From positions 1 through 23,830 of IMG/VR virus record IMGVR_UViG_3300032229_000625: DNA of 23,830 nt. One strand, 5' to 3'. Position 1 is the stretch's first letter, and every line of letters begins with the position of its first letter. The notes below the pieces were generated by a model. That model worked only from the letters and a program-made list of their open reading frames with translations, searched no databases and was not told where the DNA came from. Source of the stretch: a virus. Both the position numbers and the translations under genes were made by a program. Positions 16,744 to 22,163 of this stretch are shown here, piece by piece.

Positions 16744-17085
16744 ATGATCATCCTTACTGACGCCCAACTCGTCGAACTGACCAATCGAATCAATCAGATT
16801 CGCACCATCATTGACAGCGCACAGGTCATCAAAGCCACCGCTGCACAGCCCAAGACCGTTACCGAGCCCGCCATTCAGGCGCCTAAGCCGGTGGTCAACA
16901 AGCGCCGCAAGGCTCGTGCTCGTCGCGTCATGCTCAATACTGCTCAGGTGGTGGAAATCAAACGGCGTCTGGCTACTGGCAATGAATCAGCCGCCAAAAT
17001 CGCCAAGGATTACGGCGTACACGTCACCACCGTCAACCTGATCAAATACGGGAAGACGTGGAAAGAGGTTCAGGTTCCGGCCTGA
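16744..17085 (+). CDS. Helix-turn-helix protein resembling the tail of homing endonucleases (113 aa)
   Basis: Seen: the N-terminal 40 residues are a helix; a Lys/Arg-rich hinge follows (VNKRRKARARRV); residues 63-113 read 'MLNTAQVVEIKRRLATGNES' then 'AAKIAKDYGVHVTTVNLIKYGKTWKEV'. Known: 'LT..QV..I...L..G..S...IAK.YGV...T...I..GKTWK.V' is the DNA-binding tail of many phage HNH endonucleases. No nuclease domain is present here. It may be a regulator or half of a split homing endonuclease. Its stop runs 16 bases into the convergent gene 17070-17297. Confidence 0.75.
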   Translation: MIILTDAQLVELTNRINQIRTIIDSAQVIKATAAQPKTVTEPAIQAPKPVVNKRRKARARRVMLNTAQVVEIKRRLATGNESAAKIAKDYGVHVTTVNLIKYGKTWKEVQVPA

Positions 17086-17579: not shown

Positions 17580-17875
17580 GCCTCGTCGTCCTTACCGCTC
17601 AATGTTCCGGCATTGTGGTTTCAACCATTCCCACCAGCCAAAAGACCTACAAGATGTCGCCCAATGGTCGCGGCGTCCGCGCTGAGCGCACCCTTTGGAG
17701 ATTCAATGTCGGAATGCCCTGTTACGTGCGCGGCTGGCCTCCTTACGAAGCCACCATCATCGGCAAAGTCGAAGACTGCACATGGCCCACCTATTTAGTC
17801 CAGTCTTTTGACACCGGTGCCACGTACAAGATTTCTCAGCTTTACCTTTCCAAACGACCCATTGAAAACCGATGA
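17576..17875 (+). CDS. Hypothetical SH3-like small protein (99 aa)
   Basis: Seen: ATG at 17576 coupled to the previous stop. Starts MSLVVLTAQCSGIVVSTIPT; the second half 'GMPCYVRGWPPYEATIIGKV', 'PTYLVQSFDTGATYKISQLYLSK' has five short strands with a pattern like small SH3/Tudor barrels (G..V.V......Y.A.IIG.V......Y.V...DTGA.Y.I..LYLS). Such barrels bind peptides or nucleic acid. The reading upstream of 17576 is not coding. Fold call is inference. Confidence 0.7.
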   Translation: MSLVVLTAQCSGIVVSTIPTSQKTYKMSPNGRGVRAERTLWRFNVGMPCYVRGWPPYEATIIGKVEDCTWPTYLVQSFDTGATYKISQLYLSKRPIENR

Positions 17876-18063
17876 TCCAACTTCGTCGCTTCTACTTTGA
17901 AATCCCACAACTCAACGTCTACAACTGGGTAGACGCCTATGGCCCAACAGATGCCAAGCAAATTGCTTTTGACAGGCTGGGACCGTATTACCGTTTTGTG
18001 AAATGGCGGCAACCAATGGAGGCCAAGGAGGTTCAGCTCCCGACCTTTAATGGCACGAACTAA
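17872..18063 (+). CDS. Hypothetical protein (63 aa)
   Basis: Seen: ATG overlaps the previous stop (ATGA). Sequence MIQLRRFYFEIPQLNVYNWV, then 'DAKQIAFDRLGPYYRFVKWRQP' and a polar tail; aromatic-rich, probably strand-helix-strand. It overlaps the next gene by 14 bases. No family recognised. Confidence 0.6.
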   Translation: MIQLRRFYFEIPQLNVYNWVDAYGPTDAKQIAFDRLGPYYRFVKWRQPMEAKEVQLPTFNGTN

Positions 18064-18385
18064 CAACCACAAACTGACGCCTGCCGATGTTCTCATCATC
18101 CTGCAATCCAAAGAACCCAACCACGTTCTCGCAGAGCAGCTTGGAGTTACTCGGCAGGCTATTTCCCTTGTTCGCAATGCCAAGAGCTACACAAACGTTG
18201 CCCCCGATCTACCGCGCATTCCTGTTCGCCTCAAGGGCAGTCGTATTGATCGCAACCTGACCACCTGCAAAAGCTGCATGGAATGGGACGGTCAAGAGTG
18301 TTATTACGGATTCCCAGAGGCCATTGACGAACCCACCTACGCCACTGAATGCAGCTTGTTTAAGCGAAATCCAGACGGTACTTGA
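18050..18385 (+). CDS. HTH plus four-cysteine module protein (111 aa)
   Basis: Seen: residues 9-45 contain 'LTPADVLIILQS' and 'VLAEQLGVTRQAISLVRN', a helix-turn-helix. Residues 72-104 hold 'TCKSCMEWDGQECYYGFPEA' and later 'ATECSLF', giving C73, C76, C84, C101 with W79 and FPEA at 88-91. The same cysteine-Trp-FPEA order occurs in the 128-aa gene at 19191-19577. Likely a zinc-binding module (inference) joined to a DNA-binding domain, suggesting a phage regulator. Start overlaps the previous gene by 14 bases. Confidence 0.75.
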   Translation: MARTNNHKLTPADVLIILQSKEPNHVLAEQLGVTRQAISLVRNAKSYTNVAPDLPRIPVRLKGSRIDRNLTTCKSCMEWDGQECYYGFPEAIDEPTYATECSLFKRNPDGT

Positions 18386-18533
18386 CGCCTGTCTGGCGGA
18401 ATACTGGGCACCACAGTTTAACGATTACACCATTGACCACTGTGCCCGTATGTACGCTGCGCTCCAACCATTTATTCGCTATCAACAAGGCAACTGCCCA
18501 CTGATCAATGACGCCAATAAAGGCGACCCGTGA
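18324..18533 (+). CDS. Hypothetical helical protein (up to 69 aa), uncertain start
   Basis: Seen: the convincing part is 'TVLDACLAEYWAPQFNDYTI' to the end, a helical protein with 'DHCARMYAALQPFIRYQQG'. A TTG at 18324 gives a 62-base overlap with the previous gene; no ATG or GTG lies nearer to the helical part. The gene overlaps the next start by 26 bases. The start is unsolved, but the frame seems coding. Confidence 0.5.
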   Translation: MTNPPTPLNAACLSEIQTVLDACLAEYWAPQFNDYTIDHCARMYAALQPFIRYQQGNCPLINDANKGDP

Positions 18534-18705
18534 GTTCTACGACAGCCCACGCCACCACTGCTACGGAGCTGATTGGGTCGGTTACGGTGTTATGTCCGCC
18601 TTTCAGCCATGGTGCTGGGATGGCACCGCCGTCTGGTACGGCCCGCTCTGCGACACCAGATCTGAAGCCCTTGCGATCGCTAAAACCCATGCTGACTCCT
18701 GTTGA
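18508..18705 (+). CDS. Small Trp-rich hypothetical protein (65 aa)
   Basis: Seen: starts MTPIKATREFYDSPRHHCYG; contains four Trp, two of them in 'SAFQPWCWDGTAVWYGPLC', and ends in a helix 'RSEALAIAKTHADSC'. Likely a small compact fold with three strands and a helix. Cysteines at 18, 36, 48 and 65 lack a clear zinc pattern. It overlaps both neighbours (26 and 17 bases). Function unknown. Confidence 0.6.
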   Translation: MTPIKATREFYDSPRHHCYGADWVGYGVMSAFQPWCWDGTAVWYGPLCDTRSEALAIAKTHADSC

Positions 18706-18952
18706 ACTTGACCAACGCCGCGCCGACTTTATGGAAATGCTGTATCAGCACTATGAAGCCAAAAACCTTTTAACCGGATTATGGGAACGTTTCGCCCATG
18801 AATCGGCAACCAATCTTCGTGACTTGGATTACAACGTTTTGCGCGCTGACCTCATTCGTGCTTTTGGCAGCACTGACAGTGACTTGGCTAACCGGTACGC
18901 TGATGCTGCTATCGCCATTTTGATCAGCCACCTGTTGCCTCAGCGAGCTTGA
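18689..18952 (+). CDS. Hypothetical helical protein (87 aa)
   Basis: Seen: from ATG at 18689, MLTPVELDQRRADFMEMLYQ, then helices 'AKNLLTGLWERFAHES' and 'RADLIRAFGSTDSDLANRYADAAIAILISHLL'. An upstream ATG in the same frame (18530) would add a region that is only the shifted frame of the previous gene. All-helical, charged surface, no motif known. Three bases separate it from the next ATG. Confidence 0.65.
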   Translation: MLTPVELDQRRADFMEMLYQHYEAKNLLTGLWERFAHESATNLRDLDYNVLRADLIRAFGSTDSDLANRYADAAIAILISHLLPQRA

Positions 18953-18955
18953 GTT

Positions 18956-19189
18956 ATGGCTAACCGTTGCCCCTTCCTAAATCGCTTTGAAAACTGGTGC
19001 TTCTGGGTTTTGGCGCGTAGCCCACGCGTCGGAACAATTCAAATCCGATACCGTGGCACGCCGGCTACTTACATTGTTCGGGACCTAAACGACCCCTGCG
19101 TTGAACCTCGCCACGATGAAGAGTTGACACCAGCCTCGTTTGATCTAGAGCGTATCTTCCATATGCCTTCCTTTGGGGAAGACGATTGA
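18956..19189 (+). CDS. Hypothetical protein (77 aa)
   Basis: Seen: starts MANRCPFLNRFENWCFWVLA, with aromatic N-terminus, then strands 'VGTIQIRYRGTPATYIVRDL' and an acidic tail ending 'MPSFGEDD'. It resembles a small beta protein with an exposed acidic C-terminus; proteins that mimic DNA often are acidic, but charge here is not extreme. Followed one base after its stop by the GTG start of the cysteine-module gene. No family recognised. Confidence 0.6.
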   Translation: MANRCPFLNRFENWCFWVLARSPRVGTIQIRYRGTPATYIVRDLNDPCVEPRHDEELTPASFDLERIFHMPSFGEDD

Positions 19190-19190
19190 C

Positions 19191-19577
19191 GTGATCAACC
19201 TCTTCAACGGCAGGGTTGTTTTAGAACGACGAACGCTCGTTGAGAATTGGCGCGCCAAAGTAAAACTCCCCAAGCAAAGTGGCGCATTTATTGTCATTGA
19301 CCTTCAAACAACTGAATTAAAGCTGGCCTTTGTCCGCGCCCAGAACATTTACAGATGTTTGAGGAAGGGCGAAAGTTTTGCGGAATTGGACCCACCGCCA
19401 ACCAATCACCTTTCATGCTGGGATTGCGCTCACTGGTCTGTGTTGCGCGTGAACAATGGAGGCAATGGCTGTGAGTTCCAATTCCCCGAGGCGCGCCAGA
19501 CTGCATATGGCAAATTCGCATCTCAGTGCCACCTTTACGACGATGGAACCGAAAATTCTGAGCAGGACCGACTTTGA
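19191..19577 (+). CDS. Beta-rich protein with four-cysteine FPEA module (128 aa)
   Basis: Seen: GTG start at 19191 preceded by GGGGAAG nine bases away, immediately after the previous stop; a TTG at 19173 is an alternative. Residues 1-60 are beta-rich (INLFNGRVVLERRTLVENW). Residues 74-117 hold 'SCWDCAHW', then 'CEFQFPEARQ' and 'SQCHLY': C76, C79, C94, C113, W82 and FPEA 98-101. The module matches that of the 111-aa HTH protein. Likely zinc binding; role unknown. Confidence 0.7.
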   Translation: MINLFNGRVVLERRTLVENWRAKVKLPKQSGAFIVIDLQTTELKLAFVRAQNIYRCLRKGESFAELDPPPTNHLSCWDCAHWSVLRVNNGGNGCEFQFPEARQTAYGKFASQCHLYDDGTENSEQDRL

Positions 19578-19728
19578 AGACGGTAGCTACATCGAAACGC
19601 TAGAGCCAGTTCAAGGCGGTGAAATGTATTACCGCAGTTGTTACAAGGGAATGTGCAGGTATTCCAGTGATCTTTGGCAGGCACAAATTTATTGCCATCA
19701 AATGACTAGCCCTAGTCTTCCCGAGTAA
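19543..19728 (+). CDS. Small hypothetical protein (61 aa)
   Basis: Seen: ATG at 19543 overlapping the preceding gene by 35 bases. Starts MEPKILSRTDFEDGSYIETL, then 'GEMYYRSCYKGMCRYSSDLW' and 'QIYCHQM', a strand-strand-helix pattern with three cysteines. The last gene of the plus block; its end overlaps the convergent HNH gene by 17 bases. Function unknown. Confidence 0.6.
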   Translation: MEPKILSRTDFEDGSYIETLEPVQGGEMYYRSCYKGMCRYSSDLWQAQIYCHQMTSPSLPE

Positions 19729-20026
19729 TCCAATCCATAATTCGCGCTTCGCCAATTTCAGACCAAAACGGCAAACTTCTATAGAAAACTCGCCAGTCCT
19801 TATGCCCTTTCGCCATATTGCAGCCAAAGCAACAAGCTACTAGGTTATTTATTTTGTCCGTCCCGCCCTTGGCTTTGGGAACTACGTGATCTAGCGTCGG
19901 CGATCTACCCAATGGTTCAAAGCAATACGCGCAGTGGTAACCGAAATGAAGTAGCACGGTGTCCCTGAACCTTCGCTTAGCCTCGTGTTTTGGGACAAGT
20001 TCCGAGCCGTCAATGTGTTCAGTCAC
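19712..20026 (-). CDS. HNH endonuclease (104 aa)
   Basis: Role: metal-dependent DNA nicking/cleavage. Seen: 'HCAYCFEPLG' (C32, C35), 'TLDHVVPKAKGGTDKINNLV' (D46, H47, N61) and 'ACCFGCNMAKG' (C66, C69, N70, K73), the full ββα-metal HNH fold with the structural zinc cysteines. Known: stand-alone HNH proteins in phages are homing endonucleases or packaging accessories; here it is not next to terminase, so free-standing homing or DNA processing is more likely. Convergent with the early block. Start at ATG 20026. Confidence 0.88.
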   Translation of the reverse strand: MTEHIDGSELVPKHEAKRRFRDTVLLHFGYHCAYCFEPLGRSPTLDHVVPKAKGGTDKINNLVACCFGCNMAKGHKDWRVFYRSLPFWSEIGEARIMDWITRED

Positions 20027-20299: not shown

Positions 20300-20851
20300 T
20301 TAACCAATCGTGGTGGGATTGACCTTAAGCGTTTCCCAAGACGGCATTACAGTTTCATGTCGGTTGTAGTGCCCGATTTCCGCGTAGGACCGTTCGGGGT
20401 CACCGCACAACGGCATGAATACCATTTGGCCAATCAGCATTCCGGGCCAGATGCCTAGCCGATGCTTCTGCCGCACATTTTTCAGCTCCAAAGTTAGACG
20501 ACTTCCATGCCATCCCGGATCACAAAATCCGGCGAGCATATGTTGAAAGCCAATTCGCGCACGGCTTGACTTCAGCACAAACTGTGCAGCAATCGCAGGA
20601 CTATCAGGAAGGTTAAAAATCTCTTGCGTTTCAGCAAGGATGAATTCACCCGGCGCCAGCCAATAAGGATCGCTTGGACTATGCGTGCTGATGCTATGGC
20701 GGATCAGATCAATGGTTTCGGATACCTCAATCATGATGTTGTCGCCCAATGCCACGTCATATGACGCGGGACCAAGCCGCTCAGGATTAAAGGGATGAAT
20801 CAGGGCGTGGCTTTGGCAAAGGGCGCGAATCTCCGAATCGGGCAGCAGCAT
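20300..20851 (-). CDS. dcd: dCTP deaminase (183 aa)
   Basis: Reaction: dCTP to dUTP, first step towards dTTP for phage DNA synthesis. Seen: 'LGPASYDVALGDNI' near residue 26, 'KSSRARIGFQHM' (94-105), 'GFCDPGWHGSRLTLELKN' (108-125) and 'GQMVFM'. Known: 'K.S.AR.G' and 'DPG..G..TLE..N' are the signature of the dUTPase-like trimer family, and E122 aligns with the catalytic Glu of Dcd (E138 in E. coli). Tyr-rich dUTPase motif is absent, so deaminase rather than dUTPase; a bifunctional dCTP deaminase/dUTPase cannot be excluded. Last gene before a terminator; six bases after the lysin gene. Confidence 0.92.
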   Translation of the reverse strand: MLLPDSEIRALCQSHALIHPFNPERLGPASYDVALGDNIMIEVSETIDLIRHSISTHSPSDPYWLAPGEFILAETQEIFNLPDSPAIAAQFVLKSSRARIGFQHMLAGFCDPGWHGSRLTLELKNVRQKHRLGIWPGMLIGQMVFMPLCGDPERSYAEIGHYNRHETVMPSWETLKVNPTTIG

Positions 20852-20857
20852 TCAGGC

Positions 20858-21910
20858 TCAATAATTCCACCGGATTTTAGGGCGATCCGGTCTCATCCCA
20901 AGGTGCACGAAACCCTTTGGCGCACCGTATCCAAGCGAATAACCCCAGTGAGCATCGCACCAAGCCTGCACTGAATAAATGTCGGTTCCGGCGATATAGA
21001 AATCAACGGCGCCCGTATCAGGTGCATCGTATAAATGTTCCGACCGCGCCGAGCCGCCAACCTGCGCGTTGATTTTTGAAGGCCGATAGCCGCTTGTGAT
21101 AACGATGGGTTTGTCGCCAAATGCCTTCCGTGCCCGCTCAAGAAACTGGCAAAGCACCATGGCGGTATCGCATTGAAATTGCTTATTAAAACGACGTGCC
21201 TCTTCGTTTAATGCCAGCTCGCCGTATTTAACGTTTGGCGTTACAGCAAAACTAAATGGTTTGTCGGGTGTAAAGATCACATCCGTAGTAACAGGTTTGA
21301 CGCCATTAAGGAACAGGTCAAGTTCATCACGACGGCGACGCACCAAACCCTCCAGAACACGCCCATCACCTTTGTTCCATCGTGGCAGCTCTTCCATTGC
21401 CGCCTTTTGCGGGTCTTCGCCATTGTTCAGTCGTTTACGCAGCGTGCTCTCCATCAGCGCGCCGTTGCCCACATTGAACGCAAAACTGATCAACGCACAA
21501 CGCTGGTTATTGGTCAGCGGTACGCGAATCTGAGTATCAACGGCACGGGCAAATTTTTCAAGATCGGACAACAACAGCGCCTCGGCGTCGGCCTCGGTAA
21601 TCTTCATGCCTATCTGGACATTTGCGCCAGTATGGCCATACCCAATCGTGGGTACACCAGCCGGACAGATATAACTTTCTAGCCTCAGCCCTTCCCACTT
21701 TTTAATCAGATCAATGGCGGGTTGCAGGTCGTGCTCGGGCTGTTTGCCACCTTGGCTCCAAGCCTTAAACCAAGCCTGGTCACGGCCAAGAATATTTGGG
21801 TTGGCCTTGTTGATGGCCTCCTCAAGCTCACTGATCGCCGCCATCTGATGTGGCAACCCGCGCTGGTAATACCGGAACAGGTCAATCAGTCGAATTTTGT
21901 TTTGGCTCAT
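20858..21910 (-). CDS. Two-domain endolysin: GH24 lysozyme plus M15-type peptidase (350 aa)
   Basis: Role: peptidoglycan degradation at lysis. Seen, from ATG 21910: an N-terminal helical unit (1-55) with 'LFRYYQRGLPHQMAAISELE'; GH24 domain 65-200 with E73 in 'KKWEGL', then C82 and T88 in 'YICPAGVPTIGYGHTG', and 'PLTNNQRCALISFAFNVGNG'; C-terminal domain 225-350 with 'VITSGYRP', 'SEHLYDAPDTGAVDF' (H292, D303) and 'VHLGM' (H336), an M15_3 zinc peptidase pattern. Known: P22/R21-type lysozymes use E-8aa-D/C-5aa-T; here it is Cys. No signal peptide. An ATG at 21925 is an alternative start. Confidence 0.9.
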   Translation of the reverse strand: MSQNKIRLIDLFRYYQRGLPHQMAAISELEEAINKANPNILGRDQAWFKAWSQGGKQPEHDLQPAIDLIKKWEGLRLESYICPAGVPTIGYGHTGANVQIGMKITEADAEALLLSDLEKFARAVDTQIRVPLTNNQRCALISFAFNVGNGALMESTLRKRLNNGEDPQKAAMEELPRWNKGDGRVLEGLVRRRRDELDLFLNGVKPVTTDVIFTPDKPFSFAVTPNVKYGELALNEEARRFNKQFQCDTAMVLCQFLERARKAFGDKPIVITSGYRPSKINAQVGGSARSEHLYDAPDTGAVDFYIAGTDIYSVQAWCDAHWGYSLGYGAPKGFVHLGMRPDRPKIRWNY

Positions 21911-22163
21911 CGCTCCAAGGGGCATGAATACTCATTGGGCCACCCAATAGGCGGCTTTCACCAGTTTGCAGCACATCGTCAATTTCGTGATGAATGACAA
22001 CGGGCGAGGGCTCTATCGGCTGTGCTTTGTGCCAATCCTCAACGGCGCGATCTAGCCGAGGTTTTAACGTGGCATTGAACTTATGGTCCTGCGCCGCCTT
22101 ACGCAGGTGATCGCGCCAGTTCTTTTGGCCAAATCGCGTTAGCCATACCGTGTCGGCATTCAG
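21882..22163 (-). CDS. Hypothetical protein (93 aa) with probable CTG start
   Basis: Seen: an open frame reading, from CTG at 22163, (M)NADTVWLTRFGQKNWRDHL, then 'ATLKPRLDRAVEDWHKAQPI' and an acidic C-terminus. It has no ATG, GTG or TTG before its folded region, and a TAA ends the frame nine codons upstream of the CTG. The CTG overlaps the stop of the holin-like gene as CTGA, mirroring the ATGA overlaps used elsewhere here. Charged helical protein in the lysis cassette, overlapping the lysin start by 29 bases. Function unknown. Confidence 0.65.
   Translation of the reverse strand: MNADTVWLTRFGQKNWRDHLRKAAQDHKFNATLKPRLDRAVEDWHKAQPIEPSPVVIHHEIDDVLQTGESRLLGGPMSIHAPWSDEPKQNSTD

Follow-up and report, generated by a model that had tools for sequence, protein, structure and literature searches.

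Two neighbouring genes of a virus (IMG/VR record IMGVR_UViG_3300032229_000625), here called A and B, encode small proteins that end in a similar arrangement of four cysteines. This raises the question of whether the arrangement is a genuine domain, which other proteins carry it and what it could do for the phage. We analysed the locus within a window of 23,830 nucleotides, which is the whole stretch of DNA available to us; the features discussed below are collected in Table 1.

Two homologous modules on unrelated proteins

Both genes are intact open reading frames, with all eight cysteines at the places reported in the initial annotation and with the spacings given there, C-2-C-7-C-16-C in A and C-2-C-14-C-18-C in B. 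The motif common to the two proteins reads C-x2-C-x2-[WYF]-x(n)-C-x3-FPEA-...-C-x-L-[YF]. The FPEA stretch had been placed four residues past the third cysteine in one protein and three in the other; in fact it begins four positions after that cysteine in both (C-x3-F), so that the likeness is closer than was claimed. The remainder of A and B is indeed unrelated, their N-terminal parts being an HTH and a beta-beta-beta-alpha domain, respectively.

Table 1 Features of the A/B region, in positions of the window
Feature	Position	Strand	Description	Evidence
HTH protein without module	16744..17085	+	related to A, same operon, kept in relatives	HMM of the A HTH, E 1.3e-5
Small gene before A	17872..18063	+	14-base overlap with the start of A	phrog_22131, E 1.1e-11
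Gene A	18050..18385	+	111 aa, ATG start; N-terminal HTH, C-terminal four-Cys module	ORF
HTH of A	18080..18175	+	residues 11-42, phage HNH-endonuclease kind	AF2, tblastn
Module copy 1 (gene A)	18260..18361	+	TTCKSCMEWDGQECYYGFPEAIDEPTYATECSLF	
Small ORFs between A and B	18324..19189	+	18324-18533, 18508-18705, 18530-18952, 18956-19189	
Gene B	19191..19577	+	128 aa, GTG start; beta-beta-beta-alpha N-domain, C-terminal four-Cys module	
N-domain of B	19191..19370	+	strands 2-4, 9-12, 21-25, 33-37; helix 43-58	
Module copy 2 (gene B)	19410..19541	+	LSCWDCAHWSVLRVNNGGNGCEFQFPEARQTAYGKFASQCHLYDD	
Endolysin	20858..21925	-	convergent with the A/B operon; synteny landmark	phrog_28234, E 1.9e-104

A regular expression for the module matches twice in the window; it has no match in eight loci of cyanophage isolates (648,438 residues after translation), nor in shuffled sequence amounting to 4.6 million residues. 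An HMM built from A-class modules alone ranks B second among the 475 ORFs of the window (E 8.1e-7; next ORF 1.4), and one built from B-class modules alone ranks A second among the same ORFs (E 7.4e-7; next 0.11). By these reciprocal class-only searches, with no other significant ORF in the window, the two copies are statistically homologous. A further HMM, from a third class consisting of NrdR-ribbon proteins, recovers A at 3e-12 and B at 2e-8. In the contigs obtained through a search with the whole B protein (L003-L024), the A gene, which was not selected for, keeps its four cysteines and FPEA. The AF2 models place the module at middling to low confidence, with pLDDT of about 69-76 in A and 58-65 in B.

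A family of C-terminal domains

A profile search returning only these two copies would have marked them as chance matches; this was not the outcome. A 30-row profile finds the module in at least 368 ORFs, corresponding to at least 252 distinct proteins and at least 260 loci. Much of this wider set was collected using DNA patterns requiring FPEA; the family counts are lower bounds, and FPEA is partly fixed by construction in the set. Three sets are free of this selection: the copies of A reached via whole B, the additional (second and third) module genes on the collected contigs, and Synechococcus phage S-LBS1. All four cysteines and the proline-acidic core are kept throughout these three sets, with core variants in the second and third module genes that include FPEP, FPES, FPEG and YPDP.

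The module is roughly 35 residues long, always C-terminal and present once per protein, followed by a median tail of 7 aa. Across 30 diverse modules, Cys1-4, P and E never vary; F and A are almost as constant. The features that define the family (C-x2-C-x2-aromatic, C-x3-FPE and a C-terminal C-x2-aromatic) are found in A, in B and in the distinct proteins counted above. No family of Pfam, NCBIfam, PHROG or PDB matches the module, in line with the initial annotation, which recognised no named domain, and we found no description of it in the literature searched. Cellular genomes yielded no B-like proteins; the exact A-spacing pattern occurs in them in 3 stretches, about the chance level, none of which is a real module. 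Plasmids gave no tblastn match.

At their N-termini the module proteins carry an HTH (A type), an NrdR-like zinc ribbon, a ribbon plus HTH, a small 4-Cys knuckle or the B domain; the NrdR ribbon PF22811 is matched in 13 of 43 module proteins. Most of these partner domains look nucleic-acid-binding. Among the matches listed, the HTH occurs in 103 proteins with the module and in 44 without it, the latter including the 16744-17085 protein of the window and HNH endonucleases; the B N-domain is accompanied by the module in 191 of 191 of the matches listed and never stands alone. Modules score 57-76 bits against the HMM of their own class, compared with 15-44 bits across classes A and B. Since each architecture has its own diverged version, the reuse is old. 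The earlier view of a mobile module thus holds for its reuse on several unrelated N-terminal domains, which the class-only HMMs show to involve real homology; of recent movement there is no sign, the versions being class-specific and diverged. Judged from its sequence, the module is a real homologous domain, beyond chance resemblance, as argued by its presence on several kinds of probable DNA-binding protein in hundreds of related uncultured viruses and in S-LBS1.

The N-terminal domains of A and B

Protein A has a three-helix HTH: its AF2 model (41 sequences) contains helices at residues 11-19, 24-31 and 35-42, with pLDDT of about 81-86 over the HTH, and PF01381 HTH_3 is matched in 14 of the 41 relatives (best E 1.4e-4). 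Foldseek returns mostly HTH proteins (DeoR, AcrIIA15, sigma region 4), all of them weak at E of about 1, and tblastn relates the A HTH to that of the endonuclease of Salmonella phage BP12A (E 2e-4). The gene is kept in all 18 relatives, at 49-87% identity.

Gene B, likewise kept in 18 of 18 relatives, likely starts at the GTG at 19191, because relatives show an ATG at the same codon and the stop of the upstream ORF (19187-19189) lies immediately before it, one base away. Its AF2 model (58 sequences) has the order E-E-E-E-H, with pLDDT of about 81-92 over residues 1-60. The beta-beta-beta-alpha layout resembles that of AP2 and integrase arm-type DNA-binding domains. The best Foldseek matches include phage integrases (in BFVD), Mug113 and an AP2 domain (the top match in the PDB), at E-values of 0.08-0.7, none significant or better than 0.08, and no sequence match accompanies them. 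An AP2/Arm-like reading of B is weak, and the domain has no secure homologue.

Gene order around the module genes

The early-region location first proposed for the two genes is borne out: they lie in the late part of the early operon. The small gene that overlaps the start of A is kept in 18 of 18 relatives, as are, by tblastn, the small ORFs between A and B. Homologues of the module-less 16744-17085 protein are present in 60 module loci. Of 84 loci with a detectable endolysin, 81 have the module genes in convergent orientation to it, 1.0-4.6 kb away.

Two or three module genes occur together in 68 non-redundant loci; within each locus they are co-directional, without exception (68/68), and usually 0.7-1.6 kb apart. 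The order is HTH>B in 45 loci, ribbon>knuckle>B in 6, ribbon>B in 5 and B>ribbon in 2, so that the DNA-binder comes first and B last in most. A and B are not obligate partners, as 47 of 100 assessable B genes lack a detectable module partner in the DNA examined; the other 53 are paired.

Several neighbouring genes deserve mention on their own account. An HNH endonuclease gene (19712-20026, minus strand) lies opposite the end of the early operon and is 80-90% identical in 18 of 18 relatives, a conservation exceeding that of A. A dCTP deaminase-like gene (20300-20851, minus strand; PF22769, E 1.3e-31) adjoins the endolysin. In another contig (L127, 5533-7027), a ribbon-HTH-module gene overlaps or abuts a complete gene for a phage sigma-70 factor, beyond which lies a convergent endolysin.

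Carriers of the module

In its portal and terminase, the window shows 55-74% identity to KBS-S-2A, S-H1 and MED4-184, and no other isolate is close; the virus probably infects picocyanobacteria. More generally, 231 of the 260 module loci listed encode proteins that are at least 40% identical to proteins of seven Synechococcus/Prochlorococcus siphophages, compared with 7 of 70 control viral loci; by this measure, the module carriers are cyanosiphovirus-like.

The sole cultured carrier found is S-LBS1, from Lake Bourget, whose ribbon-HTH-module protein is SLBS1_A39 (ATS93211.1). Close uncultured relatives also exist. Most replication genes in the neighbourhood of the S-LBS1 module gene are on the other strand, and the text of the S-LBS1 paper does not mention zinc. 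In ten other cyanophage genomes checked with the HMM, a convincing module is absent. That the module is missing from all cultured phages was suggested by tblastn of short modules and by the HMM on 7 genomes; the HMM on S-LBS1 refuted it. Phage S-EIV1 encodes an NrdR-like ribbon plus HTH protein that lacks the module (L345, 34838-35218), possibly a module-less counterpart.

The window also holds a tyrosine integrase (PF00589, 22930-23823), found in 4 of 26 other module records and in none of the six marine cyanosiphovirus isolates searched; given this gene, the window phage may be temperate. PF10343 Q_salvage (queuosine salvage) is a further, sub-threshold match of the same ORF (E 4e-4).

A possible docking domain of transcription regulators

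We propose, with a probability of about 0.4, that the module is a docking domain, stabilised by a metal, at the C-terminus of a family of small phage transcription regulators. We infer metal binding (likely of zinc), docking and transcription control, with confidence decreasing in that order. Most likely, the module, with its four invariant cysteines, folds around one metal ion, probably zinc; in cyanosiphovirus-like phages it is the tail of small proteins whose various N-domains mostly look nucleic-acid-binding. Protein A, with its HTH and module, would recognise promoters or operators of the phage. B is its usual downstream partner, with a small N-domain of its own. The shared tail could then serve as a docking surface that joins A-type to B-type proteins, or both to a common partner such as the host RNA polymerase, and the A/B set would help to control early-to-late transcription.

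The last step draws mainly on location. The set closes the early operon and faces the endolysin; in four cultured cyanosiphoviruses (KBS-S-2A, S-CBS1, S-CBS3 and S-LBS1) this place is taken by a sigma factor, whose gene is convergent with the endolysin at a distance of about 0.4-1.5 kb, and in L127 the ribbon-HTH-module gene runs directly into the sigma-70 gene. As a basis for a role in transcription this shared location is circumstantial, and the module proteins could serve replication or another process instead. A stronger version, in which the module replaces the phage sigma factor, had some statistical appeal, as sigma region 2 occurs in 4 of 6 module-less marine isolates and in 1 of 27 module records (Fisher 0.0017). 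We dropped it, because S-LBS1 has both and the records are fragments and related to one another; only the shared location is retained. Sigma factor and module also coexist in L127, hence the module is not a simple sigma replacement. A more ambitious extension of the docking proposal, speculative and in our estimate improbable, would be a cyanophage-specific toolkit: a Cys4 docking domain on interchangeable DNA-binding heads (HTH, NrdR ribbon, ribbon-HTH, knuckle, Arm/AP2- or Gp2-like B domain), with two or three proteins per phage that would assemble on the polymerase of the host and bring about the change from early to late transcription, next to a phage sigma factor or in its place.

An unlikely alternative is that the module is a second DNA- or RNA-binding zinc finger, which widens the recognition surface of the N-domain and has no docking role. 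Three points count for a finger: the domain in front of the module is in every case small and mostly of a DNA-binding kind, phage endonucleases commonly combine an HTH with a finger, and the A HTH is of the HNH-endonuclease kind. However, most invariant residues are hydrophobic or acidic (FPEA, A, aromatic), the alignment of modules has no conserved basic stripe, and one tail on very different N-domains within a single operon is better explained by a shared partner.

B could also be a host RNA polymerase inhibitor like T7 Gp2 with an added Cys4 tail, which would shut off host transcription jointly with A. Two libraries agree in pointing to such inhibitors, PF16857 RNA_pol_inhib in 7 of 58 B-class proteins and phrog_1307 in 5 of 58 (best E 0.014 and 0.006, respectively). 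Yet the similarity, confined to some B-class N-domains, stays below threshold: the Pfam scores checked are 12.5-15.3 bits against a curated cut-off of 27, PF16857 has no match in the B of the window itself, and Gp2 is missing from the top 50 of the Foldseek search against the PDB. We consider this reading quite improbable.

Little likelihood attaches, too, to an iron-sulphur cluster in the module, through which redox or light state would switch the DNA-binding domain, as with HiPIP-like or WhiB-like Cys4 sites. By eye, the order and flanks of the four cysteines (C-x2-C-x2-aromatic ... C ... FP ... C-x2-aromatic) resemble those of HiPIPs (PF01355), and a phage protein with CxxCxxW...WCG in L318 weakly matches Pfam HIPIP (E 0.019). 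Profile comparison fails to sustain the resemblance: an HMM of the HiPIP core, made from PDB-derived sequences, scores the modules at a median of 2.7 bits and no better than Cys-fixed shuffles (maxima 10.6 and 12.7 bits, respectively), hhalign gives a probability of 1.4%, and PF01355 has no match to modules in 27 records. HiPIP membership was rejected on these grounds. The L318 protein, MTTNTCKTCRFW...WCGEW, is encoded about 3 kb upstream of the B gene of that contig and has weak HiPIP and HPIP_like similarity; it belongs to a broader phage family, with members in Synechococcus phage MinM1 and in phages of Caulobacter. S-CBS1 encodes a DUF6171-like CxxCxxF...CxxCGCF protein (L154, 26716-26955), from a further family of small phage Cys proteins that begin in a similar way.

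It is very improbable that A and B are remnants of homing-endonuclease-type selfish elements that kept their DNA-binding parts and lost the nuclease, since, in spite of the HNH-like HTH of A and the adjoining HNH gene, the place and order of the genes are the same across divergent phages, Cys and FPEA are strongly constrained, and B is unrelated to endonucleases.

Comparison with known systems

The module amounts to a protein domain without a name, shared by hundreds of uncultured cyanophage contigs and one cultured phage, and it links small 'hypothetical' gene families that annotation treats as unrelated. Its proteins are a concrete candidate for transcription control in picocyanobacterial siphoviruses.

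Two known systems share parts with the module proteins. The HTH of A and of the 16744-17085 protein is of the same type as in phage HNH endonucleases (phrog_59, phrog_6156 and phrog_20467). Contrary to those enzymes, A has no nuclease domain: no HNH nuclease motif was found in it, the phrog_59 match is confined to the HTH stretch, and those families lack the C-terminal module. The NrdR N-terminal zinc ribbon (PF22811) forms the N-terminal part of many module proteins; it is a Cys4 unit distinct from the module and is missing from A and B, PF22811 having no match in the window, so that neither protein has the hallmark of an NrdR repressor.

The closest cultured counterpart is SLBS1_A39 of S-LBS1, in which the same module (HMM E 1.8e-11) stands behind an NrdR-like ribbon and an HTH, with FPDP in place of FPEA. 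The phage also has a sigma factor, and a B-type protein was not detected in it. Together with its host, Synechococcus TCC793, S-LBS1 offers a test system for the module.
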